This document shows positions 14,801-62,800 of a stretch of 64,000 nucleotides of DNA, one piece after another. A model generated the notes under the pieces. It had not been told where the DNA came from. It worked only from the letters and a program-made list of their open reading frames with translations, and did not search any database. The DNA comes from Ridgeia piscesae. Taxonomy: Eukaryota > Annelida > Polychaeta > Sabellida > Siboglinidae. The position numbers were made by a program, and so were the translations under genes. The stretch is from contig JAODUO010001178.1 in NCBI GenBank assembly GCA_025642075.2, positions 127,501-191,500 on the forward strand. The letters run 5' to 3'. How positions within the stretch are numbered: the first letter of the stretch is position 1; each line of letters opens with the position of its first letter.

Positions 14801-17800
14801 CATGGTTATAATAATAAATTGTAAACTTGATCAGGACATGGAGGTAGTTTTGAAGATGTGATGTAAGTTTGTACAGCCCAGTTGCTCACCAGGTACCAGT
14901 GGAGCCCTTAACCCAGTATCTCATTGTCAGAGACCATGTTCTGTGCAATAACATAGACAGATTTACAAATAAGAGTTGTAAGGGTAAGTACATGCAACAC
15001 AAAATAATTACAACTTACTTCACCACCTGCCTGATATGCATGTAATCGACAGAGCTGTGTGCCATATGCTGGTATACCAGTGTACTGTTTAACTAGGTAT
15101 TTATATACAGTTTTGAAACAGGTTTCTATTCGACGTGGCATGTTTTATGGCCAACTGACAGTACTTTTCAGTCTTCTGCTATATGAGTAATGTGTCGTAG
15201 ACCTAAATAGCAGTCTGATTTGTGCCCGCCACAAGTGTCAACCGCCAAGTGTTACTGCACTGTACATATGGAGTAAGTGATAAACGTTTAAGAGAAGTTG
15301 TAATTTATCACTGCGGGGCTTTGTACAAAATGGAGTTGACTTTCCAGTGCACACGACTGGGGAGTGGGTCATATTCAAGTGTGCACAATTTTGAGATGGA
15401 TTGAATTTTAAATTGGCATGCGTTGCCTGATTCTGTCTGTTCACATAAATATTGACTGCTCCCTAAAGTTCTGTGCTGTGAGCACAAACACTTAAGAGAC
15501 TTGGTCTGTGAGTGAGGGTGGTTGTCAGTGGATGCTGGTGGTTTTGCAGCATATCCAGACAACTGCCTTGTGGCATCTCTCAACTCTGATGGCAGTGTGA
15601 AGTGTACCACATGTGAGGACAGATACACACCGTCCAGTACTGGTGACAACTGTATGGGTAAGTATATGAAATACACAAATGATTAATGCCTTGTGTAGCA
15701 ACTTGGTCCTACCTGGACTCATGCAACCTACTAAATATGTCTTAGACAAAGAGAGGTAGTTTCTGTGATACATTATTGTCAGATAAAAACAATTTGTCAA
15801 AATTTGGTTGATCCTTGCATCAGGGTTCAACTGATCTAGTCCAGGAGATTTAAATCTCGTACTCAAGACAGGTTGATGTCACTTATAGTCACAGCGTAGT
15901 CATTACTCATTTCTTTTGCAATCAATTGAAAACAAGGACTGTACAAATTATGCATTATATGGACATTTTAAATTAGAATATATTTAAACTTACAATCTTA
16001 AAAAGAATGCATAGAACAGTTATTGGCTGAAATGATTACAGACCGAATAGTATCTAGATGTTGAGTAATGTTACACTGAGCACACACAAGTGAAAGAAGA
16101 TTTGCTGCTGGTTAAACAGACAGTAGTTTGTTAAGTGGTGTGTGATGGGTATCACATGGTACAAGAAGCCACCAGTTGGCAGCTGCTTGTGCAGCAATGT
16201 ATGTGCTATGTTGACAGAGTGTCCTAAGAACTGCAAGATGTGTGCCAATGTCGACGGCTCCACCAAGTGTTTCGATCAGCAGTGTCAAGATGGATTCGTC
16301 CTCAACCCCACAAACTTCCAATGTACCGGTGAGTGGGTCATTTACTTGACATAATATTTACAAAGTCTGAGCTTTTCATTGTAAAATCACATAATGCAGA
16401 ATCAACTAAAACTTGAAATCACGACTGCATGCAGACATTTTCTATGAAACAGTTGTTTTAAGATAACATTAGTGTTATCTGTTGATTAATAATAACCTCA
16501 CTGATACGTTAATTCAAAACATTCATATAATGGCTCATGATTACAATCTCCTTAAATCTTGTTCCCATTGCCTTCTGGGTAGTAACATTTCTTATGGCAA
16601 TCTAACTTCACTCCATCCCACCCCCAGTCTTCTACTCCAATCACATCTCAAATGTGGTCTGCTCCATCTTCTCTACCCAGACTGTTGATGTCTCAGCTCT
16701 CTCCGTACAGTTCTCCATTTGTCTTGCATGCTCTGTCTTCTCCATCCAGACTCTGTTGATGTCTCAGCTCTCTTCTTACAGTGCTCCATTTGTCTTGCAT
16801 GCTCCGTCCTCTCCATCCAGACTCTGTTGATGTCTCAGCTCTCCGTACAGTGCACCGCTTTCCTCCACTTGTCTTGCATGCTCCATCTTCTCCACCCAGC
16901 CTGTTGATGTCTCATCTCTCTCCGTACAGTTCTCCGCTTTCCTCCACTTGTCTTGCATGCTCCATCTTCTCCATCCAGACTGTTGATGTCTCAGCTCTCT
17001 CCGTACAGTTCTCCGCTTTCCTCCACTTGTCTTGCATGCTCTGTCTTCTCTACCCAGACTGTTGATGTCTCAGCTCTCTCCTTACAGTGCTCCATTTGTC
17101 TTGCATGCTCCGTCTTCTCCATCCAGACTATGTTGATGTCTCAGCTCTCTCAGTACAGTGCTCCGCTTTCCTCAACTTGTCTTGCATGCTCCGTCTTCTC
17201 CACCCTGGCTGTTGATGTCTCAGCTCTCTGCTTACAGTGCCCCGCTTTCCTCCACTTGTCTTGCATGCTCCGTCTTCTCCACCCAGACTATTGATGTCTC
17301 AGCTCTCTCCGTATAGTGCTCCGCTTTCCTCCACTTGTCTTGCATGCTCCGTCTTCTCCACCCAGACTCTCTTTATGTCTCATCTCTCTCCTTACAGTGC
17401 TCTGCTTTCCTCCACTTGTCTTGCATGCTCCGTCTTCTTCACCCAGACTGTTGATGTGTCAGCTCTCTCCGTACAGTTCTCCGCATTCCTCCACTTGTCT
17501 TGCATGCTCCGTCTTCTCCACCCAGACTCTCTTTATGTCTCATCTCTCTCCTTACAGTGCTCCGCTTTCCTCCACTTGTCTTGCATGCTCCGTCTTCTCC
17601 ACCCAGACTGTTGATGTCTCAGCTCTCTCCGTACAGTTCTCCGCATTCCTCCACTTGTCTTGCATGCTCCGTCTTCTCCACCCAGACTGTTGATGTCTCA
17701 TCTCTCTCCTTACAGTGCTCCGCTTTCCTCCACTTGTCTTGCATGCTCCGTCTTCTCCACCCAGACTGTTGATGTCTCAGCTCTCTCCGTACAGTTCTCC

Positions 17801-20800
17801 ACATTCCTCCACTTGTCTTGCATGCTCCGTCTTCTCCACCCAGACTCTCTTTATGTCTCATCTCTCTCCTTACAGTGCTCCGCTTTCCTCCACTTGTCTT
17901 GCATGCTCCGTCTTCTCCACCCAGACTGTTGATGTCTCAGCTCTCTCCGTACAGTTCTCCGCATTCCTCCACTTGTCTTGCATGCTCCGTCTTCTCCACC
18001 CAGACTGTTGATGTCTCATCTCTCTCCTTACAGTGCTCCGCTTTCCTCCACTTGTCTTGCATGCTCCGTCTTCTCCACCCAGGCTGTTGATGTCTCAGCT
18101 CTCTCCGTACAGTTCTCCGCATTCCTCCACTTGTCTTGCATGCTCCGTCTTCTCCATGCAGACTGTGTTGATGTCTCAGCTCTCTCCGTACAGTGCTCCG
18201 CTTTCCTCCACTTGTCTTGCATGCTCCGTCTTCTCCACCCAGACTGTTGATGTCTCATCTCTCTCCTTACAGTGCTCCGCTTTCCTCCACTTGTCTTGCA
18301 TGCTCCGTCTTCTCCACCCACACTGTTGATGTCTCAGCTCTCTCCGTACAGTTCTCCACATTCCTCCACTTGTCTTGCATGCTCCGTCTTCTCCACCCAG
18401 ACTCTCTTTATGTCTCATCTCTCTCCTTACAGTGCTCCGCTTTCCTCCACTTGTCTTGCATGCTCCGTCTTCTCCACCCAGACTGTTGATGTCTCAGCTC
18501 TCTCCGTACAGTTCTCCGCATTCCTCCACTTGTCTTGCATGCTCCGTCTTCTCCACCCAGACTGTTGATGTCTCATCTCTCTCCTTACAGTGCTCCGCTT
18601 TCCTCCACTTGTCTTGCATGCTCCGTCTTCTCCACCCAGGCTGTTGATGTCTCAGCTCTCTCCGTACAGTTCTCCGCATTCCTCCACTTGTCTTGCATGC
18701 TCCGTCTTCTCCATGCAGACTGTGTTGATGTCTCAGCTCTCTCCGTACAGTGCTCCGCTTTCCTCCACTTGTCTTTCATGCTCCGTCTTCTCCACCCAGA
18801 CTGTTGATGTCTCAGCTCTCTCCTTACAGTGCTCCGCTTTCCTCCACTTGTCTTGCATGCTCCGTCTTCTCCACCCAGGCTGTTGATGTCTCAGCTCTCT
18901 CCGTACAGTTCTCCGCTTTCCTCCACTTGTCTTGCATGCTCTGTCTTCTCCATCCAGACTCTGTTGATGTCTCAGGTCTCTCCGTACAGTGCCCCGCTTT
19001 CCTCCACTTGTCTTGCATGCTCCATCTTCTCCACCCAGACTGTTGATGTCTCATCTCTCTCCGTACAGTTCTCCGCTTTCCTCCACTTGTCTTGCATGCT
19101 CCGTCTTCTCCACCCAGACTGTTGATGTCTCAGCTCTCTCCGTACAGTGCTCCGCTTTCCTCCACTTGTCTTGCATGCTCCGTCTTCTCCACCCAGACTG
19201 TTGATGTCTCAGCTCTCTGCTTACAGTGCCCCGCTTTCCTCCACTTGTCTTGAATGCTCCATCTTCTCCACCCAGACTGTTGATGTCTCAGCTCTCTCCG
19301 TACAGTGCTCCGTTTTCCTCCACTTGTCTTGCATGCTCCGTCTTCTCCATCCAGACTCTGTTGATGTCTCATGTCTCTCCGAACAGTGCTCCGTTTTCCT
19401 CCACTTGTCTTGCATGCTCCGTCTTCTCCATCCAGACTGTTGATGTCTCATCTCTCTCCGTACAGTGCCCCGTTTTCCTCCACTTGTCTTGCATGCTTCG
19501 TCTTCTCCATCCAGACTCTGTTGATGTCTCATCTCTCTCCGTACAGTTCTCTGCTTTCCTCCACTTGTCTTGCATGCTCCGTCTTCTCCATCCAGACTGT
19601 TGATGTCTCATCTCTCTCCGTACAGTGCTCCGTTTTCCTCCACTTGTCTTGCATGCTCCGTCTTCTCCATCCAGACTGTTGATGTCTCATCTCTCTCCGT
19701 ACAGTGCTCCGTTTTCCTCCACTTGTCTTGCATGCTCCGTCTTCTCCATCCAGACTCTGTTGATGTCTCATCTCTCTCCGAACAGTGCTCCGTTTTCCTC
19801 CACTTGTCTTGCATGCTCCGTCTTCTCCATCCAGACTGTTGATGTCTCATCTCTCTCCGTACAGTGCCCCGTTTTCCTCCACTTGTCTTGCATGCTTCGT
19901 CTTCTCCATCCAGACTCTGTTGATGTCTCATCTCTCTCCGTACAGTTCTCTGCTTTCCTCCACTTGTCTTGCATGCTCCGTCCACTTCGTCCGGCTCCGT
20001 ATAAGTCTTTCCACCCATCCACTAGGTTGTTATTGCTCCTGTTAATTCTATGGCAGGTCTGCAGGTGAGACACTTGAACTGACTGCTTCAGTAACAGCCT
20101 GCCATCTGCCATCTGCCATGATTGCTGTACATTTCTTTTTTCCCTAAAAACTTGTATCATCTCTGCTTCTTTCAGCGTGTAAGGCTGGATGTAAGAAGTG
20201 CTCCTACAACACAAACGCTGACTCAGCCACCTGCTATGAATGCAACACTGGTTATGGGTTGAAACCAGACGACACGACGTGTCACGGTAAGATCCATTCA
20301 GAATATCTGAAGCTAGTCATCACATCATCTAAATAGGTGTTTCTCTATGTATTTCATTCATGGTGACATCAGGAAATACCTGGTTAAATCCAGTGTGTCT
20401 CAATTTCACTTGATTCATTGCACAATTTTTGTGATTAGATAGTTTCAATGGATAGTGAGGCTTAATGCCAGGTTTTCTTGTAACTTATTTTAGTTTGGTT
20501 GTTGATATTGTCAATTTGATATTTTATATTGCTATTCATTGTTTCTGATAATGTCTATATGACCAGTTTTAGGTAAAGGTAGAATATTTTGCTTTATTAC
20601 ATTTTATTCAAACATAATTAAATGTATAACTTATACATCTTATCTAATGAATGATTCTATGTCAAATCAAACAGTTTTCAGGATAATAGGTTCAAATGAT
20701 GTGCTGATAGAAAGAAATACGCTTGTAGAGTGCCCCAACTGCAACAACAAACAGTCAGGCAGAGTGCGACACAGACAAGTGTGCCACCGGCTACATGCTA

Positions 20801-23800
20801 GACACTGGCGAATGCAAACGTAAGTTGTGTCTTGTAGATGTTAATTACATGTTATCTTTGACCATTGTGATTTCATCTGTGACTCTTCTTTGTAGCACAG
20901 ACGTTTAGTGTGTGCCTTCAACTGTGTAAACTGTGACAAGTGTAGGGAAAGGACATTAGGGGTTGGTTTTGTAAACTGTGACAAGTGTAGGGAATGGACA
21001 TTAGGGGTTGGGTTTGTAAACTGTGACAAGTGTAGGGAAAGGACATTAGGGGTTGGGTTTGTAAACTGTGACAAGTGTAGGGAAAGGACATTAGGGGTTG
21101 GGTTTGTAAACTGTGACAAGTGTAGGGAAAGGACATTAGGGGTTGGGTTTGTAAACTGTGACAAGTGTAGGGAAAGGACATTAGGGGTTGGGTTTGTAAA
21201 CTGTGACAAGTGTAGGGAATGGACATTAGGGGTTGGGTTTGTAAACTGTGACAAGTGTAGGGAAAGGACATTAGGGGTTGGGTTTGTAAACTGTGACAAG
21301 TGTTCTTTTGTCTGCTTGCAGAATGTGCTGACAATTGTGTTACCTGCTCAACTGAGGGACAGTGTGACACCTGCAAGACTGGTTATATAGTGAATAGTGA
21401 CAAGACTGCATGTGTTGGTCAGTTAATTTTTGTTCCTTCTCTTAACGACTGAGTGAAATTAACAATTTTATTTCTAATCTGAATTATATATACTCTACAA
21501 AAAGCGACATACTATTCAACTAATTATCTAACTTTCTTTGTAACCCTTTTTTAAGACCTCTTTGTGGTGCTTTATTCAGCAGTTTATTGTGACACCCAGC
21601 CACCACTGGTGACATCACCATTGGAGATGTCACTGAGCCCACCCAAGCAAGCCTCTAACGTGGCTAGCAGTGCTGTGATCTGTTGTTTCAACCTGGTGAA
21701 ATCGCAGTTATGGAAATTACTGTTTTTATTACGATAAAGATAACAGTCTTACATACAAATATGTCGCTAGGATGTATACAAGAATTTTCTTCATTTTTGT
21801 TTGTTTGAACAATGCGAAATATTAAATTATGTTATTGCAATTTAATGTAATGTCACAATACATGAAGTTGCTATAAAAATCTGTTTAGATGTAATCTGAA
21901 AGATTGTAATCTTGTTTATAGACACGTCATTACATGTACATAAGATTTATTGTTTGTATTTTGAATTATTCTGTTGTGAATGCCTGCTGCGTAGCTGTAA
22001 AACAGCCACTTATGTAATGAATTCATTATATTCAAACATTAACAACTCAAAACATAAAAAATTCATGTGGTACATATAAATTCACATGATTGCCATGTTC
22101 AAGGGTAAGATGTGTTCAGTTTGTTCAAGTGAAAATCTAACCTTTAAAGTCATACATATCAGATAGATAGGATTATTACTACAATCGCCTTTTCCTGGAT
22201 ACAACTATCATTCTAACTTAATCTCAGTTGTTGCAATGATATCTACTAGATGCAGATAGACAAAACATACACTAACAGGTTTTGTTCACTGCTCATTCTA
22301 GACTGCAACAATTGGCTCAGAGGAATGTCAGCAGGATTTATGAGAACTATTAGGTTGTTGCTAGAATGATGTATGCAGCTACAGTAGTATTTATGTTACT
22401 TGCAGTAGTGTGTTCTTTGGGACTGGCATTGTGTAACTAGTGTTGTGTGTGCAGAGTGTCCCACTGGATGTGACACGTGTACGGCTGAGACTGCTGGCTC
22501 AACAACAACAACCACCTGTACTGCTGGTGGTTGTAAGACAGACGGTTACACTCAGATCCTGACCAAGGCATGTGTTGGTGAGTTCAGTCACTTCATTGAC
22601 GCTTTCTGCTACAATGTTCACAAGTGTATACCTAATTCTGGGGTGTGATAGGCTGTCAAGTTTATTTTCTCTTGCTGCTATTTGGAAGTTTGTAGAATAG
22701 ATTTTGTTCACTCCATGTTGGACATGTGTGTTGTTAGTTTTTGCATAGTAATTGCAGCATGGCTGAATTCTTCCAGGAGAAGTGAGATGCCATTTAATTG
22801 AATAGGTCAACCTTCTGAAGGTGGATGGAATGCGTTGAACAGTCCCAGAGACTGGATACCATAGTACATAATAACTTACCTGTTTCTTAAAATACTCACA
22901 ACTATATTATGTGTTGAGTTCTGATGGCAAAAGTAAAGTAAAGACAAGTAAAGGTTCACAAAATTAAATGTATTTACTGCATGGCAGGAACTGGCCGATT
23001 GTAATTTCTCCCTGTGTATCTCTGAGGTATCGCATGCGTGCGGGTGTTTGTGCATGTGTGTGACGTTTGATACCAAGTGTCAGGGTGCAGTGTTGCTCCT
23101 GATGTGTTGCAGCCTGTCCACCTGGCTGCAAACAGTGTACATACACCAACAACAAGTACACGTGCACAGATTGTATGTCTGGATACACGCTTTCTGGCTC
23201 AACATGCATCAGTGAGTATGACATTCAGTGCCATGTGGGTGTGGGGGCCAGTCATGTTATTCTTACAGATGTTGTCCAGTAGGGGGTACCACACAATGTA
23301 GTCACCAGATGGCGCCACAATGTGGCATGCCACAACTTTCCCAGACCCTCTTCTTGCAGTCTTCATATCTCTGTTTTGGTGTTGATGTTTACCCATCTCC
23401 GTTAAATTATTGTCAAAGATAATACCAGGAAGAAGCTAAAACTAATTAATTAATAAAATACAATTGATTCCTTTTAGTTATCTTAATGTATAACATAGCA
23501 GATCAAACCTGATGAGCCTGGTATTTTGGTATATATCATTTCTACAGACAGAACAAGATGTTAATTAATTAACCAAAATAATAGATTAATTATTTAATTA
23601 ATGTCTTGTTCAACCTGCACAAATTATAGATGATCATTCATTTTGAACTCCTCATATTTTGTTTGACATGTATTAGCTACTATGGTCTCTGAACATTAAA
23701 CATTTTAACTCTTCTGAGTCTATAAATAATAGACATATATTTACTGCCAAACTCCTCAACTTGCATTTGATATTGTACACTTTTAATCACAGAAAAGTAG

Positions 23801-29800: not shown

Positions 29801-32800
29801 TTCTAATATAACTGCAAGACATTGTTTTTTTTTTAAATATGATGAGTATTTAAAAAAATAAAAATCATGACATTTTACGATGTCATTAATCTCTATAGAC
29901 TGCTGCATGTGTTCTTCATTGGTAAATTTTTTCTTCTGTCAGCGTGCCCGCAAGGTTGCATCTCATGCTACCTTGATGAGACAACTGTCAAGTGTGCAAT
30001 TAATGGTTGCACCGCAAAGTTTGGACTAGATTCAACAGATGCCAGTTGTGCCGGTAGGTTGATTGTACACAATACTTAGCTAATTTCACTTATATTCTTT
30101 TAACTCTTCTAAGGTAATTTTGCCCAGTAAAAGATGAGTTTTTTAGTCAACAGTATCAAGTCCATTGTAATAATAATTGTCACGCTTCTATAGAACTTAA
30201 ATCTATAACATACTTAAATTGTAATGATTGGCAAACACACATCTGCGTACAAACATGTATACATAGTATAGACAATTGTTAAGATATATTTTATGGATGA
30301 GGTTATTTGTATTGATGGTGATGTGAACGGATTGCACTTTGTTCTATAAGACATGACAATTTACGGTGGGCGATAAAGGGGTCTTGGAATATTGGCAGCA
30401 CAGTTGCTGTTCACAGTGATCGTATAAAGCTTGTAAACAGTATCGGCATCAGGCAATGGGTAGAAAACATACCTGGGTATTGATTGGAGTGTTTTTGTCA
30501 TGCCCAATTAGCAAGGAAAGATGTGATTTAAATAACACCTATTCTGGTCATTGTCAATTTTGTTGGCTATGCAGCCATTGCGTTGCCTGTGTTGTGAGCA
30601 GTAGTTTAGATTCAATTACAATTTGTTGACTGGCATTGTAACACCATACTGAATTTCTCTTCTTTCCTTGGCGTAGAAATCCATGAAATTGATCCAAATT
30701 GACTTTGTTGTTAGTCGTAGTGTTTGCATTTACGAGGGGTGGTTTTTTTACAGGGTAGGCATGTAAAAAGCAGGTGGTCATTGAAGAAGGTGGTAGTTCT
30801 ACTGTACACATACAGTAACTCTTGCCCTGGCCCTATCATAGCTACATAAAATGTGTCATTTTGTAGACTGTGCCCAGTGTAGACTGCCTTATATCGTTTG
30901 TATACACATGTATCATGGTGTTATTTTTAGTTTTGGGTCATTAATGTCACAAGTGTCACATAAATTGACAAGTGTACTATCCTTCAAATATTATCAAAAT
31001 CATACTACCTTCTGTAATCTGTCACAATATTTGCTTTTGAATTACATGGGATGTCCCTTGACTGTGTCATGACACCAACAGTTGTCAATTGTTGCTTTGA
31101 CATGGGTTCAACAAGAATAATAAATTGTGCCATTTAATTTTAAAACATGCTTATTTAATTATTATTTATTTTCTCAGCACGACCTACAACAAGAATGTTG
31201 CTCAGTCATAATAAAAAGTTGATGTAGGTAATTATTGGGGTGTTGTGGTAGAGGTGTTTGGATGGCAATCCGCGATTTTGTGGTGTGGGGGTTAATGGGG
31301 CACATTGTTATGTAGTTAGTAGTGAGGTTGTTGTTATATAGAGTTTGTAGAGGGTTGTGGCGTAAGTTGTGGAGCAGGTGTACGTTGGGTGATAACACAA
31401 GTGAATCATTATATTTACATTTCTAGTTGCCATAACGCTTGTTTCTCTGGTGTCATTGATTTCATGCAAAATCTGCCGTAAAAAAAAATATTTTCTAATT
31501 GACTAATTATGATTCATCAGTTTACAAGTATGTTTTTAATTTCATGCAACCTGTCGGTAAAAATCATACCGTCGTGAAGCAACGCTGACATGACAATTTT
31601 TGCGCACATTTTTGCTATTTCATGGACAAAAGTTCACCAAACAAGTTAATTCATATTTAAATTTTACATCATTGTAAATATGTTACGTTGTTATTCTAAC
31701 GGTTTTATATGTGCACTATTTAATGTGGAGTGAACACATCACTATTTGTGGCCATGGGGTGTAATTGGGGTGCAGGTGGTAGTTGTAAAGTGAAGTGTAG
31801 GGGATGAAAAGATGTTTCAGCTTCAGTCAGTGTCTTGATTATGACACATTGTCCTTGATGTGTTCCAGAATGTGCATCTGACTGTGCAACATGTGACACT
31901 GCTGGTGAGTGCACCACCTGCAATGAGGGTTTCTACGTGAACTCCGGAAAGACATGCACAGGTCAGTTCTTTTTAGTCTACGTAATATTGCCAATACATG
32001 GCGTATGTTCCACCTATCTTATTGTTATGTGTATGAGTGTTAAGAATCTCCAGTGACTCTCCAAACTTCCTGTCAATGTCACATTTTCTCAAACCAGATG
32101 GCTGTGAGATAGATCATTTATGCTACTTGATGCATGAATTTAATATATCATTATCAAAGTATATTTCAAATTCACACAAACGTTGGTGTAATTTTCCAGA
32201 TGGTGAAATCATGCCATGCAAGCTTTATAAATGTGTGCTATTTTCTATTATCAATATATCAAACCTATATCGCTGGTATCCACATGTAGCAGCATTTAGT
32301 TTTTACTGTTGGAATCATTCCAAGGAAGAGATTGTTCTGTGGAACAATGGAATTCAATTGTATGTGAACCGAATTTGACTGTTTCTGTTATTTGTCCAAA
32401 TGTGAACTTTTTAATATGGGGGATGACAAAACTATTCAAAAATCAACAACAAATTAAAACGTTTCTGTCGATTATTGGCATAGATCGCAATTGCAGCCAT
32501 CATCGTTTTAAAAATAATCTTAATTTTGATTAGCCAGCAACTTATTTTGTTAGTTATCACAATGTAATTATTTTTGAATTTGTGTTGCAAAACACAACCT
32601 ACAACCAGAAATTTGCTCTCAGTGATAAAAGTTTAAACTGTTGTTGTAGGTGATTGTGGGAGTGTTTGGATGGAGTGTTGGGTGGTAATTTAGTGGAATG
32701 TTGTGGTGTGGGTGATAATGGGGTGTATTGTAATGTAGTTAGTAGTGAGGTTGTTGGCATAGAATGTAGCGGGGCATGTTGTGTGTTGGTTGTAATGGGG

Positions 32801-35800
32801 TGTGTTGTTATGTAGTTAGTAGTGAGGTTGTTGGCAAGTGGATGGTTGTGGGTGTGTTGTGGCGTAGGTTGTAGTGGTGGCGTGAAAGGTTCTATCTGTT
32901 AAAATGTGTTGTATCATTATTGTCCTTTTCAGTTTTGGGATAGAAATATGTCTCCGGATCAGTCAAAGTACCCAGATTACGACAGTGTTCTTATGTGTTC
33001 CAGCATGTGCTGATAACTGTGCAACGTGCGATGCTTCTGATGTGTGCAAGACATGCATGACTGACTTCTTTAAGAATACTGCTGGAGATGCATGCGGAGG
33101 TCAGTTCATTTTCATTATGTTAACACATTTTATCCTGAAGCTAGTGCATGTGAGTTGCAGCCAGTTCCTCATTATTACCACAAAACTAATCTGTCATCAT
33201 CAGAAAATGGCATAATTTTATTATTTTCTATCAATGTTTAAATATGATACAATCAGAACAGAAAGCAGATAAAATCAACCATTTCAATCCAATCCTTTAT
33301 TTCAGACACAATTATTCATACATATGTCAGTTTCTGATCATTTCCATAACATCCATGTTCAGCATCAGAAAATGACAGGCCTTCACATCAAATGGAAATA
33401 ACTTTATTATTTCTCTGTACATTTTGTAATGTGATATACCTTTAGAAGTGTTGGGGTGCAGGTGGTAGTTGTAAAGTGAAATGTAGGGGATGAAAAGATG
33501 TTTCAGCTTCAGTCAGTGTCTTGATTACGACACATTGTCCTTGATGTGTTCCAGAATGTGCATCTGACTGTGCAACATGTGACACTGCTGGTGAGTGCAC
33601 CACCTGCAATGAGGGTTTCTACGTGAACATCGGAAAGACATGCACAGGTCAGTTCATTTTTAGTCTACGTAATATTGCCAATACATGGCATACGTTCCTC
33701 CTATCTTATTGTTATGTGTATGAGTGTTAAGAGTCCCCAGTGACTCTCCAAACTTTCTGTCAATGTCACATTTTCACAAACCAGATGGCTGTGAGATAGA
33801 TCATTTATGCTACTTGATGCATGAATTTAATATATCAGTATCAAAGCATATTTCAAATTCACACATAAGTTGGTGTAGTTTGTTTCACGCAGGCATATCT
33901 AGATGGTGAAATCATGTCATGCGTGCTTTTTAAATGTGTAATAATTTTTATTATCAATATATCATCAAACCTATATCACTGGTATCCACATGTATCAGCA
34001 TTTAGTTTTTACTATTGGAATCATTCCAAGGAAGAGATTGTTCTGTTGAACCATGGAATTCCATTGTACGTGAACCCAATTTGACTGTTTCTGTTATTTG
34101 TCCCAATGTGAACTTTTTAATAGAGGGCATGACAAAACTGGTCAAAAATCAACAACAAATTAAAATGTTTCTGTCGATTATTGGCATAGATCGCAATTGC
34201 AACCATCATCGTTTTAAAAATAATCTGAATTTTGATTAGCTAGGAACTTATTTTGTCAGTTATCATGGAGTAATTATTTGAGAATTTGTGTTGCAAAACA
34301 CGACCTACAACCAGAAATTTGCTCTCAGTAATAAAAGTTTAAACGGCTGGTGTAGGTGATTGTGGGAGTGTTTGGATGGAGTGTTGGGTGGTAATTTAGT
34401 GGAAGGTTGAGTGTGAGTGATAATGGGGTGTATTGTAATGTAGTAGTGAGGTTGTTGGCAGAGAATGTTGTGGGTTGGTTGTAATGGGGTGTGTTGTTAT
34501 GTAGTTAGTAGTGAGGTTGTTGGCATAGAATGTTGTGGGTTGGTTGTAATGGGGTGTGTTGTTATGTAGTTAGTAGTGAGGTTGTTGGCAGAGAATGTTG
34601 TGGGTTGGTTGTAATGGGGTATGTTGTTATGTAGTTAGTAGTGAGGTTGTTGGCAGAGAATGTTGTGGGTTGGTTGTAATGGGGTATGTTGTTATGTAGT
34701 TAGTAGTGAGGTTGTTGGCATAGAATGTTGTGGGTTGGTTGTAATGGGGTATGTTGTTATGTAGTTAGTAGTGATGTTGTTGGCAGAGAATGTTGTGGGT
34801 TGGTTGTAATGGGGTATGTTGTTATGTAGTTAGTAGTGAGGTTGTTGGCAGAGAATGTTGTGGGTTGGTTGTAATGGGGTATGTTGTTATGTAGTTAGTA
34901 GTGAGGTTGTTGGCAGAGAATGTTGTGGGTTGGTTGTAATGGGGTATGTTGTTATGTAGTTAGTAGTGAGGTTGTTGGCAGAGAATGTTGTGGGTTGGTT
35001 GTAATGGGGTATGTTGTTATGTAGTTAGTAGTGATGTTGTTGGCAGAGAATGTTGTGGGTTGGTTGTAATGGGGTATGTTGTTATGTAGTTAGTAGTGAG
35101 GTTGTTGGCAGAGAATGTTGTGGGTTGGTTGTAATGGGGTATGTTGTTATGTAGTTAGTAGTGAGGTTGTTGGCAGAGAATGTTATGGGTTGGTTGTAAT
35201 GGGGTATGTTGTTATGTAGTTAGTAGTGATGTTGTTGGCAGAGAATGTTATGGGTTGGTTGTAATGGGGTATGTTGTTATGTAGTTAGTAGTGATGTTGT
35301 TGGCAGAGAATGTTGTGGGTTGGTTGTAATGGGGTATGTTGTTATGTAGTTAGTAGTGATGTTGTTGGCAGAGAATGTTATGGGTTGGTTGTAATGGGGT
35401 ATGTTGTTATGTAGTTAGTAGTGAGGTTGTTGGCAGAGAATGTTATGGGTTGGTTGTAATGGGGTGTGTTGTTATGTAGTTAGTAGTGATGTTGTTGGCA
35501 GAGAATGTTATGGGTTGGTTGTAATGGGGTATGTTGTTATGTAGTTAGTAGTGATGTTGTTGGCAGAGAATGTTATGGGTTGGTTGTAATGGGGTATGTT
35601 GTTATGTAGTTAGTAGTGAGGTTGTTGGCAGAGAATGTTATGGGTTGGTTGTAATGGGGTGTGTTGTTATGTAGTTAGTAGTGATGTTGTTGGCAGAGAA
35701 TGTTATGGGTTGGTTGTAATGGGGTGTGTTGTTATGTAGTTAGTAGTGATGTTGTTGGCAGAGAATGTTATGGGTTGGTTGTAATGGGGTGTGTTGTTAT

Positions 35801-56800: not shown

Positions 56801-59800
56801 AGATAGAACAACACAGAATTCTTTTATAAATGTTAGTATTAGATATTAAGTAAATATTTTGCTATATTCAAATGCAGTGAGTACTTGTAGGATTAATCAG
56901 CTGTACACGTAATGCACAGTTTGTATGTATTGTTTACCTTCACTTTAATGCATAATGTATGTATATTTGTCATTATTTTATTAAATTAGTACAAATCATT
57001 TAATATATGTATAGATACAGTGTTACTTGTGTGTCAAGAGTATTAAATGTATATGTTTATGTTCTATTTAGCTTATTTTATTTGCCAGAATGACCTCATT
57101 GTAACAGTATTGTAACCATTGTGATGGTGGTGTATCTTCACAGTGCGTTCACACATTAGAGCATTATGTCAACCACAGGGGCTGTGTTTTCAATGTGTTC
57201 ACCCCACAAGAGTGTTTTGCAGTGTTTGTAGTGTTGTATTCACAATGTGTTCACCTCAAATGATGCTGTCCATTGCAGCGTGTCCTGCCAACTGTGAGTC
57301 GTGCTACCTGGACGTGGATGGGACAACAACCAAGTGTCTCCTGAGTGGCTGTCAGCAGGGCTACACTCGCAAGTCAGACGGAACATGTGCTGGTGAGTCT
57401 CAGTGCACACGGTGCAAATGTACTTGTGCATCAGTGTGTTTATTAGTGAGTGTGAAAACACGTGTATAGCTGTAACTGTAACCTTTGAGCAAACTATAAT
57501 GAGAACTAAGATAAATTGGACATCAGTATGTAGTGAGAAATGAATATTATGGACAAACTTGCACATTATGGACCAACATGCACATTACGCATGGATGCTT
57601 TCATGTGTAAATAGCTGGTCTATTATTCATCCTATCTGTAGTGGTATTTAGACAGGCTTCTTTGTGTTTCCATCTTTAGCCTGTCCAGTCGGCTGTGCTG
57701 AGTGCAAAGAGGACAATGACAAGATCGTCTGTGAAGACAACAAGTGCCTGTCCACTCATATCCAGGTGGCTGCCTCCAAGTCTGAATGTGTCGGTGAGTG
57801 TCAGTGTGTGTTACTTTATACTGAGTGTGTTACTTTATACCGAGACTTTGTGGCTGTCTCCAAGTCCAGATGTGTTGGTGATTGTCACATGTGTGTTACT
57901 TTATACTGAGTGTGTTACTTTATACCGAGACTTTGTGGTTGTCTCCAAGTCCAGATGTGTTGGTGATTGTCACATGTGTGTTACTTTATACTGAGTGTGT
58001 TACTTTTTACTGAGACTTTGTGGCTGTCTCCATGTCTGAATGTGTTGGTGAGTGGCAGTGTGTGTTACTTTATACTGAGACTTTGTAGCTGTCTCCAAGT
58101 CTGAATGTGTTGGTGAGTGCCAGTGTGTGTTACTTTATGCTGAGACTTTGTAGCTGTCTCCAAGTCTGAATGTGTTGGTGAGTGGCAGTGTGTGTTACTT
58201 TATACTGAGACTTTGTGGCTGTCTCCAAGTCTGAATGTGTTGGTGAGTGCCAGTGTGTGTTACTTTATACTGAGACTTTGTGGCTGTCTCCAAGTCTGAA
58301 TGTGTTGGTGAGTGGCAGTGTGTGTTACTTTATACTGAGACTTTGTGGCTGTCTCCAAGTCTGAATGTGTTGGTGAGTGCCAGTGTGTGTTACTTTATAC
58401 TGAGACTTTGTGGCTGTCTCCAAGTCTGAATGTGTTGGTGAGTGGCAGTGTGTGTTACTTTATGCTGAGACTTTGTAGCTGTCTCCAAGTCTGAATGTGT
58501 TGGTGAGTGGCAGTGTGTGTTACTTTATACTGAGACTTTGTAGCTGTCTCCAAGTCTGAATGTGTTGGTGAGTGCCAGTGTGTGTTACTTTATGCTGAGA
58601 CTTTGTAGCTGTCTCCAAGTCTGAATGTGTTGGTGAGTGGCAGTGTGTGTTACTTTATACTGAGACTTTGTGGCTGTCTCCAAGTCTGAATGTGTTGGTG
58701 AGTGCCAGTGTGTGTTACTTTATACTGAGACTTTGTGGCTGTCTCCAAGTCTGAATGTGTTGGTGAGTGCCAGTGTGTGTTACTTTATACTGAGACTTTG
58801 TAGCTGTCTCCAAGTCTGAATGTGTTGGTGAGTGCCAGTGTGTGTTACTTTATACTGAGACTTTGTGGCTGTCTCCAAGTCTGAATGTGTTGGTGAGTGC
58901 CAGTGTGTGTTACTTTATACTGAGACTTTGTGGCTGTCTCCAAGTCTGAATGTGTTGGTGAGTGGCAGTGTGTGTTACTTTATACTGAGACTTTGTGGCT
59001 GTCTCCAAGTCTGAATGTGTTGGTGAGTGGCAGTGTGTGTTACTTTATACTGAGACTTTGTGGCTGTCTCCAAGTCTGAATGTGTTGGTGAGTGCCAGTG
59101 TGTGTTACTTTATGCTGAGACTTTGTGGCTGTCTCCAAGTCTGAATGTGTTGGTGAGTGGCAGTGTGTGTTACTTTATACTGAGACTTTGTAGCTCAAAT
59201 CACTCCACATGGGTTAATCACGAGCTTGATCTTGTTTTTGTTCATCTTCCTTTGACAGTTGATGGTTCCAAATCAGTTAATTGTCAGTTGCCCTTGTTGT
59301 TGTCCAGCTGAAGCTCATCTTAATGCTTGGTGGACAGGTCAGTTAGGTGGACATATCATGCCTTGGCCTGCTCATGTGTCATCTTTATACTGTTGATGAG
59401 GCTGGAAGTTGTCTGGAGCTTCATTTAAAGCCACTCCATCAAATGCTCCAGGTCTCAGTCATGCTGTTAATGTAGTTAACTGGTAAAAGGTTAGGAGGAA
59501 ACAGTTTGTGTCCATTGCATCGTCTGTTAATAATAAAGACATTGTTATTTTGTAGATGATTGCTGATGCACTTATGGAAGTGTAACACCTTTATAATTGT
59601 TGTGTAAACATTGATACATTCTGTGAATGCTTTTAGAAGACACAATCAATGCAGTTGGACCCTCCTAGCTGGAGTCTTTGCCAGGGGAAGTAAAAGATCT
59701 CACATTACATGGAAAAATGGAAACAATTTATAGCCACTCCATCAAATGCTCCAGGTCTCGGGCATGCTGTTAATGTAGTTAACTGGTAGAAAGGTTCATA

Positions 59801-62800
59801 GGAAACTTTTGTGTCTCACAGATCTCATTGTGCACATGTTACTTGTTTCAGTGTGTCAGAGTGGTTGTAAGGAATGTACTTTTAGATAGCTTCTTCAACC
59901 AGGTGGTATATATTGTTTGTGTTTCAGCATGCTACAGCGGTTGTAAGGAATGTACTTTTAGATAGCTTCTTCAACCAGGTGGTATATATTGTTTGTGTTT
60001 CAGCATGCTACAGTGGTTGTAAGGAATGTACTTTAGATAGCTTCTTCAACCAGGTGGTATATATTGTTTGTGTTTCAGCGTGCTACAGTGGTTGTAAGGA
60101 ATGTACTTTAGATAGCTTCTTCTAACCAGGTGGTATATGTTTGTGTTTCAGCGTGCTACAGTGGTTGTAAGGAATGTACTTTAGATAGCTTCTCTAACCA
60201 TGGATTTGTTTGTGTTTCAGCATGCTACAGTGGTTGTAAGGAATGTACTTTAGATAGCTTCTCTAAACATGGATTGTTTGTGTTTCAGCGTGCTACAGTG
60301 GTTGTAAGGAATGTACTTTAGATAGCTCCTCTAAACATGGATTGTTTGTGTTTCAGCGTGCTACAGTGGTTGTAAGGAATGTACTTTAGATAGCTCCTCT
60401 AAACATGGATTGTTTGTGTTTCAGCGTGCTACAGTGGTTGTAAGGAATGTACTTTAGATAGCTCCTCTAAACATGGATTGTTTGTGTTTCAGCGGGCTAC
60501 AGTGGTTGTAAGGAATGTACTTTAGATAGCTCCTCTAAACATGGATTGTTTGTGTTTCAGCGGGCTACAGTGGTTGTAAGGAATGTACTTTAGATAGCTC
60601 CTCTAAACATGGATTGTTTGTGTTTCAGCGGGCTACAGTGGTTGTAAGGAATGTACTTTAGATAGCTCCTCTAAACATGGATTGTTTGTGTTTCAGCGGG
60701 CTACAGTGGTTGTAAGGAATGTACTTTAGATAGCTCCTCTAAACATGGATTGTTTGTGTTTCAGCGGGCTACAGTGGTTGTAAGGAATGTACTTTAGATA
60801 GCTCCTCTAAACATGGATTGTTTGTGTTTCAGCATGCTACAGTGGTTGTAAGGAATGTACTTTAGATAGCTCCTCTAAACATGGATTGTTTGTGTTTCAG
60901 CATGCTACAGTGGTTGTAAGGAATGTACTTTAGATAGCTCCTCTAAACATGGATTGTTTGTGTTTCAGCATGCTACAGTGGTTGTAAGGAATGTACTTTA
61001 GATAGCTCCTCTAAACATGGATTGTTTGTGTTTCAGCGGGCTACAGTGGTTGTAAGGAATGTACTTTAGATAGCTCCTCTAAACATGGATTGTTTGTGTT
61101 TCAGCATGCTACAGTGGTTGTAAGGAATGCTCTTTAGATAGCTCCTCCCACCAGTTGATGTGCTCAGATGGAAAATGCCAGTCCAAGTACACACAGTTGT
61201 CGAGTTCGAGTGACAAGTCGTGCACTCGTAAGTACAAACATCTCTGTGTATTTCAATGCTCACAACAGTGCGTCACAAAAGAGTTGTGGGCAAACATAGA
61301 GACATATTTATAATTTCACTTGGGTACATTTCTATCTGACCTCTGTAGCTGCAGATCACAGCTACGCAGTTGCAATAAGTATAAAAGATAACATGTTTTC
61401 AGCTGTTTCACAAAAACTGTCATTGTTTGAAATTAAGCTTTTGGAAGCATTTTCTTCAAATGCCTGTTGCTTTTGTTTTACATTGTGAGCTGTTTTTATC
61501 CTGAATGTCCTTAATGAGGTAAACCGTAATGTTCCTTCTATGAGAATCATGAAACCATATCTCAGGTATAAGATTTCCTTAGCCCATAAATTACTCTATA
61601 AGATTGTACTGGGAGGTTTACAAGAAAACTCAGCTGTATAGGTTTTATCACTTGCCCCAGATAGAGTCTAGCTAAAAACACACTCGTCACACATTTAACT
61701 TTAGGTTATAACAGGGTCAGCCTGGTATTAACACAATGTTCTTTTGTTTATAATTAATATGTATGGAGATAATAAAACTACCCGATGACAAAGATATATA
61801 TACATATCATGTTTGATATAGGAGAAATAATACAATGTTATATGATCTGATTATACAAGAAATGAACGTAGAATTTGTGTATAGTTTGGTTGTATAAGTT
61901 TTGGTGTGACATGATAATAACAGTTCTGTATCTACACTTCAGCCTGCCCAGCAAACTGTCTTGAGTGCAGTGTCACCGACACAGGAAGTATTTGCAACGA
62001 CAGGAAATGTGACCCAGGATATGCACAAAATCCAACTGAAAAGACTTGTCTTGGTAAATATAACTAATACAATCTTTGTAGTAGCACCAAAAATGGTACT
62101 GAATGGAAATATGACTTTAAACGCAGTTAAGTTACTGGTCACTTATCTGATGTATTAAAAAAAACAGTTACGTTCGCAGGAACCCAACATTGTTGTCAGC
62201 AGCTAGGGACTATGCTGAACATTCACACTGTTGCAAGATTTTAAATGATAAAAGTGTAACTATACTATGTTTTTATAATGCCGTAAAGCATTTGCTTAAT
62301 AAAATTCGGTCAATTTAGTTCATTGCAGCCAATCCAATAATTGCACAGTGCCTCAACTAAGGTTATTTGTGTTACCTAGCGTGCTCAACTGGCTGTGCGT
62401 ACTGCACGTTTGTGGCATCCGCTACACCCTCCACGAAATGTACACGTCATGGTTGTAAATCGGGTTACTTCGAAGTTAATGAGGATTGCAAAGGTATGTT
62501 GTTTTCCAAGAGTCAATGATTATTCATATTTTAAATAAGTTCTACCTCAAGGCATGCCTAAAATGTTTCCTTGGTTTTAACATAATTTTTATACTATATA
62601 GGCCTGAATAACATTTAACATGTAAGCCTTTCCCATTGATACATTTAGCAGAACTCATGTAATGGTTTGTGTGCATGTGTGCGTGCGTGCGTGCGTGCGC
62701 GTGCGTGCGTGCGTGTGTGTATGTGTCTGCATGTGTGCGCTCGCAAACATATTCATGCATATGCATGCATACGCCAATACACATTCTCCCCACCTGCAAA

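Follow-up and report, generated by a model that had tools for sequence, protein, structure and literature searches.

Arrays of copied splice sites at both ends of one intron, probably a splice-tolerated minisatellite

What does it mean for a gene when an intron is bounded at both ends by rows of near-identical splice sites? We address this question for the 3311-bp intron 57794–61104 in a 64,000-bp stretch of genomic DNA, referred to throughout as the window. The intron separates exons 57680–57793 and 61105–61227 of one long gene on the + strand, which lies partly inside the window with 35 candidate exons from 7439 to 63022. A preliminary description of this DNA read the extra acceptors as a switch into transcript decay. 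We find that the arrays are real and consider it likely, at a probability of roughly 0.8, that they are a mirage, namely a splice-tolerated minisatellite whose unit happens to span an exon–intron boundary. In amphioxus, mirages are minisatellite-like tandem duplications of the 5′ or 3′ exon–intron boundary (PMC3087553).

Splice-site arrays at the two ends of one intron

The 3′ end of the intron carries an array of acceptors. We counted 19 TTTCAG acceptors with first exon bases from 59852 to 61105, in agreement with the 18 extra copies of acceptor plus exon start previously described ahead of the real site; the copy number is that of one assembly. Tandem Repeats Finder (TRF) places this acceptor mirage at 59844–61147 on the + strand, with a unit composed of exon start plus intron end, and includes a 68-bp row over 60063–61147 with 97% matches. 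From 5′ to 3′ the units measure 76, 76, 75, 73, 69 and then 68 nt; in the longer 5′ units (75–76 nt) the exon start contributes about 57 nt and the intron end about 18 nt. Mean unit identity is 95.7% (minimum 86.8%), with 5′ edge copies that differ in length and sequence and later copies that are nearly identical. Single-copy 3′ splice-site context (59807–59851, + strand) is found at the 5′ edge of the array and aligns with the 5′ edge of a related array on contig C1837. Because this old intron end remains single-copy at the 5′ edge, the real acceptor is preceded by only about 18 nt of intron-derived sequence, upstream of which lies exon-derived sequence. The array as a whole is flanked on one side by the old intron end and on the other by the body of the exon.

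We scored the copies with splice matrices built from 32 of the 35 candidate exons minus the tested site (10813, 15559 and 56661 were excluded as irregular). With a matrix from 31 other gene acceptors, the real acceptor receives 17.2 bits and its 18 copies receive 8.0–17.6 bits. Of the 3548 AG sites in the window, 24 attain the score of the real acceptor, a tally in which array copies and training sites are counted too. The 25 nt preceding the real acceptor are repeated exactly ahead of 12 of the 18 copies. A CTAA motif marks 15 of the 18 window units and none of the 37 units on C1837, and a scan for YTNAY branch points had no power, finding the motif before 18 of the 31 gene acceptors versus 45% of random windows.

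Every one of the 18 extra units (59852–61104, + strand) runs into a stop. The frames opened at the upstream acceptors close after 11–55 codons, 16 of them at TAG and two at TAA, both TAA stops being located at 60123. The earlier account, which placed TAG stops no further away than the following unit, therefore stands as to the stops and needs amending in detail: two are not TAG, and the stop falls within the own or next unit for 17 of the 18 acceptors and in the third unit for acceptor 60152.

A donor array occupies the 5′ side of the same intron, as had been proposed, and it too is real. Defined by TRF and by splitting into units, this donor mirage spans 57766–59195 on the + strand and repeats the exon end with its donor 20 extra times, 18 with GTGAGT and two with GTGATT, at a spacing of 84–85 nt and then 65 nt. 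The exon-proximal GTGAGT (57794–57799, + strand), presumed to be the donor in use, ends the exon at module length and has a matrix score of 8.9; the 18 GTGAGT copies reach 8.3 and the two GTGATT copies 1.8. Reading from 19 of the 20 extra donors is terminated by a TGA at 57907. The first extra donor, at 57878, is in frame and open, has the weak GTGATT signal and would add 28 codons if used.

Related arrays on a second contig and in the same gene

A search of 628 Mb in 4875 contigs with the acceptor unit found a second acceptor array on the minus strand of contig C1837. The flanks of this locus are colinear with 55.9–64.0 kb of the window, in pieces that are ~64–84% identical, and they include open relatives of exons 38, 41 and 43 in the numbering of the preliminary description (89–92% identity over aligned bases). 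The C1837 array contains 38 acceptors and 37 units, of which 28 are 75 nt long, two are 72 nt long and seven have lengths not divisible by 3, leaving 30 of 37 in frame. Read in the exon frame, a typical 75-nt unit is free of stops and gives ACHSGCKECTLDISSNQVVCVVCVS across runs of copies, with a longest open run of 358 codons from one acceptor. A stop closes all 38 acceptor frames, in 34 cases ahead of the terminal exon copy, and these stops arise mostly behind the seven units that shift the frame. Past the last copy the exon body has decayed, having lost bases and reading into a stop. Because the larger array precedes an exon that is not usable whole, this locus fits turnover without function.

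The two loci share the acceptor array and differ in donor array, unit length, copy number and exon state. Extra acceptor copies number 18 in the window and 37 on C1837; unit identity within C1837 averages 98.1% (minimum 93.2%) and falls to 85.9% between the loci. The C1837 relative of exon 57680–57793 (9538–9428, minus strand) is open and 111 nt long. A genome search with the donor unit, in which only the best candidates were scored, placed 21 matches in the window locus and a single match at C1837:9393–9455. The donor segment on C1837 is single-copy, with GTGGCT both in the exon (9455) and in the intron (9392); their spacing of 63 nt is near the 65-nt donor unit.

A further acceptor mirage with a unit of ~103 nt lies downstream in the same gene, at 67307–69500 in coordinates extended from the window (L012:7807–10000). 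Three extra copies precede exon 67618–67725, each reaching a stop after 17 codons, and at least 15 unit-spaced copies follow this exon and continue to the end of the stretch examined. The exons around it are of the same module type as those in the window. In view of the related array on C1837 and this downstream mirage, we rejected the idea of a unique, purpose-built array.

Minisatellites (period of at least 20, at least three copies) are abundant here, covering 13,801 of the 64,000 window bases (21.6%) and 35,117 of 172,500 non-N bases (~20%) in a genome sample of 20 stretches of 10 kb, which were taken from contig bases 5001–15000, near contig starts, with 27,500 N bases excluded. We simulated random seeding within the window, placing the units of 10 arrays relative to 70 exon boundaries, and at least two boundaries were struck in 26.8% of 20,000 trials. 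Boundary arrays recur in this gene, and on the seeding model two that frame one intron are a mild coincidence.

Origin and effect of the arrays

Several features identify the arrays as a mirage. The unit holds exon and intron sequence including the splice signal, arrays are found at both 5′ and 3′ exon boundaries, and in the window the interior copies are homogenised and the edge copies diverged. Slippage or unequal exchange between short repeats would have duplicated a boundary segment, and a GTGGCT pair such as that on C1837 may have given rise to the first donor duplication in this way. Because splice signals persist beside each exon body, extra copies would turn intronic and be tolerated, which would allow the arrays to grow; expansion and homogenisation would proceed through ordinary minisatellite turnover. 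We infer that splicing mainly joins 57793 to 61105, as this pairing yields module-sized exons of 114 and 123 nt, both phase 1-1. Splicing to an upstream acceptor would then amount to noise, yielding transcripts with early stops. Skipping of the exon would preserve the frame and so relax constraint further.

Other observations weigh against this interpretation. No copy has lost its AG, whether among the 19 in the window or the 38 on C1837, although homogenisation can also explain this retention. A stop lies behind each upstream acceptor in the window (18/18) and behind each on C1837 (38/38). The single-copy 3′ splice context adjoins the first stop-bearing acceptor, and a branch point retained in it could therefore steer splicing towards 59852. 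The GTGGCT repeat, 6 nt within ~110 nt searched, is weak by itself, and an 8-nt repeat with another spacing occurs in the same sequence. In the seeding simulation both ends of one intron were struck in 0.6% of trials, a figure calculated after the fact. A comparison of constraint on the signals inside the arrays was uninformative for either side, the intron-derived part being more variable than the exon-derived part on C1837 and less so in the window. We consider it unlikely that full-length output hinges on array length and unit type, varying between individuals; were that the case, choice among the 19 near-identical acceptors would set this output, and the CTAA of the window units might act as a new branch point.

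The same stops underlie the proposal of a regulated switch, in which poison acceptors would route transcripts to nonsense-mediated decay and array length would tune output. They follow all 18 upstream acceptors and 19 of the 20 extra donors, and on C1837 they end all 38 frames, 34 ahead of the terminal exon copy; moreover, the acceptor copies score like real sites, and the first stop-bearing acceptor has single-copy 3′ splice context beside it. The preliminary description was thus right that stops lie behind all upstream acceptors, but beyond these stops nothing speaks positively for the dedicated decay switch that it built on them. The paralogous locus also argues against such a switch: its donor is single, its unit length differs and its typical 75-nt unit is open by itself, and because its exon has decayed, no full-length product through that exon is left for a switch to regulate. 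Given also that another mirage is present in the same gene and that published mirages are reported to leave splicing undisturbed (PMC3087553, PMC3902484), we regard a regulated switch as distinctly improbable. Still harder to credit, to the point of near-exclusion, is protein-length variation, in which array copies would act as alternative in-frame starts of the exon and extend the module. The 75-nt C1837 unit does read in frame through successive copies, for as many as 358 codons, and window donor 57878 would add its 28 in-frame codons, but all 18 upstream acceptors in the window hit stops and none of the 38 on C1837 reads through to the end of the exon.

We also considered whether the copies or their number stem from repeat misassembly. 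The sequence comes from a single assembly, N gaps occur in 7 of the 20 sampled stretches, the mitochondrial-like contig C3158 shows broken frames and some copies of the downstream mirage differ through small losses. However, the copies bear distinct, clustered variants and lengths, and an array with variants of its own is present on another contig, which makes an artefact very unlikely. The open frames of the 35 candidate exons point the same way only weakly, as these exons were selected for openness.

Gene setting and known systems

The candidate exons are short and phase 1-1, and most correspond to one cysteine-rich module apiece; the scan that chose them demanded an open frame, so their openness was preselected. 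Exon 57680–57793 (+ strand, phase 1-1) encodes a cysteine-rich module, CPVGCAEC..., in a phase-1 frame that is open from acceptor to donor. Exon 61105–61227 (+ strand), exon 40 of the preliminary description and the 32nd of our 35 candidates, begins CYSGCKECSLDSSSHQLMCSDGKC... and is followed by the donor GTAAGT. Searches with the protein of 7 of the 35 candidate exons returned no Pfam family at E 0.1 and no PDB chain at E 0.01. A search for protein relatives with 439 amino acids from 11-odd exons gave 13 weak matches, among which the sole named one is from the annelid Dimorphilus gyrociliatus (E 1.4e-14).

Between the two arrays, the middle of the intron (59200–59845, + strand) contains a dispersed repeat of ~75 nt at about 59630–59705, with at least 37 matches besides the window and C1837. 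The search with the intron middle scored 40 matches, namely the window itself, two in C1837 and 37 elsewhere, the last all at query positions 431–506. Pairing of the donor and acceptor arrays across the intron was rejected, the duplex of the two units having an energy of −45.1 kcal/mol versus a shuffle mean of −52.4 kcal/mol, with 189 of 200 shuffles at least as stable. A 15-nt microexon within each acceptor unit was likewise dropped, its GTAAGG donor scoring 0.4.

Other repeats lie elsewhere in the window. A 45-bp array of 8.4 copies (20925–21303) ends 18 nt ahead of the acceptor of exon 21322–21417 and may hold the branch-point region of this exon, with the AG uncopied. A 79-bp pyrimidine-rich array of ~40 copies with strong strand asymmetry (16660–19982) lies in the intron before exon 20176. 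Over 31869–54023, two exon types alternate as near-identical copies, one at 31869, 33555, 38930, 47042 and 49167 and the other at 33004, 36864, 44958, 48637 and 53928, and 65- and 77-bp minisatellites occupy some of the introns, as if exon blocks had been duplicated together with their repeats.

The preliminary description held that this arrangement had no described counterpart, which does not agree with the published record: amphioxus mirages that span exon–intron boundaries are already described in two reports (PMC3087553, PMC3902484). The genes described there are Adh3 and the globins BflGb6 and BflGb9, to which PGBD5 and troponin C are likened, with units of 10–72 bp in Adh3, 60 and 108 bp in PGBD5 and ~150–160 bp in the globins (PMC3087553, PMC3902484). 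These mirages are reported not to disturb regular splicing (PMC3087553, PMC3902484), and those of Adh and TnC to yield no aberrant mRNAs (PMC3902484). As far as the available accounts go, amphioxus mirages and the intron described here have in common many units with AG/GT signals and concerted evolution inside the cluster that leaves out its edges. Two BflGb6 haplotypes have 6 and 3 units there, and two PGBD5 assemblies have 2–7 and 3–6. Our intron, which has 18 extra copies at its 3′ end and 20 at its 5′ end, is in this respect unlike the amphioxus mirages as those accounts present them. The host probably differs as well, looking lophotrochozoan; a cephalochordate host is where mirages were described and is no part of their structural definition.

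Mitochondrial-like genes are found at C3158:12438–13073 and in its flanks, with frames broken at several places, so that this contig is either a nuclear copy or affected by assembly base errors. It includes a COX1 match, and by eye we read the order nad3-nad2-cox1-cox2, a gene order seen typically in annelids and in some further lophotrochozoan groups, and not in lancelets. Among the best 120 of 6803 matches to the COX1 fragment, identities are about 60–76%, mostly to entries without a species name. Among the best 120 of 7998 matches to an HSP70 exon, one entry without a species name reaches 99%, and the named ones, at about 91%, belong to Sinonovacula, Corbicula, the annelid Alvinella and the spider Lycosa, a spread over molluscs, annelids and arachnids that does not decide the placement. 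We regard the genome as probably lophotrochozoan.

Further systems bear comparison. Poison exons and poison splice sites, which act through nonsense-mediated decay, resemble this array in that use of an alternative site brings in an early stop; on C1837 the exon itself has decayed. The human 6-16 (IFI6/G1P3) minisatellite is reportedly, going by the title of the work, confined to the donor side and would be comparable to the array at 57766–59195. In human genes of segmental duplications, internal tandem repeats at a boundary may switch on cryptic splice sites and so give rise to introns (PMC2812944). Those repeats, with 30-bp units in four copies on average and in primate-specific duplicates, are as described there unlike the array in our window (PMC2812944). 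Apart from these human cases, the open-licence literature searched, to the extent that its text was accessible, reports no mirages outside lancelets.

The locus pair provides a before-and-after view, with a single donor and a short direct repeat at one locus and a related donor in 21 copies at the other. The acceptor array offers a natural setting in which to study spliceosomal choice among 19 near-identical acceptors. Relative to the systems above, the intron is a striking case of a kind already known, and its phylum is probably one without a prior report in the accessible open-licence literature that was searched. If the lophotrochozoan placement holds, mirages are no oddity of lancelets and may recur wherever minisatellites are dense.
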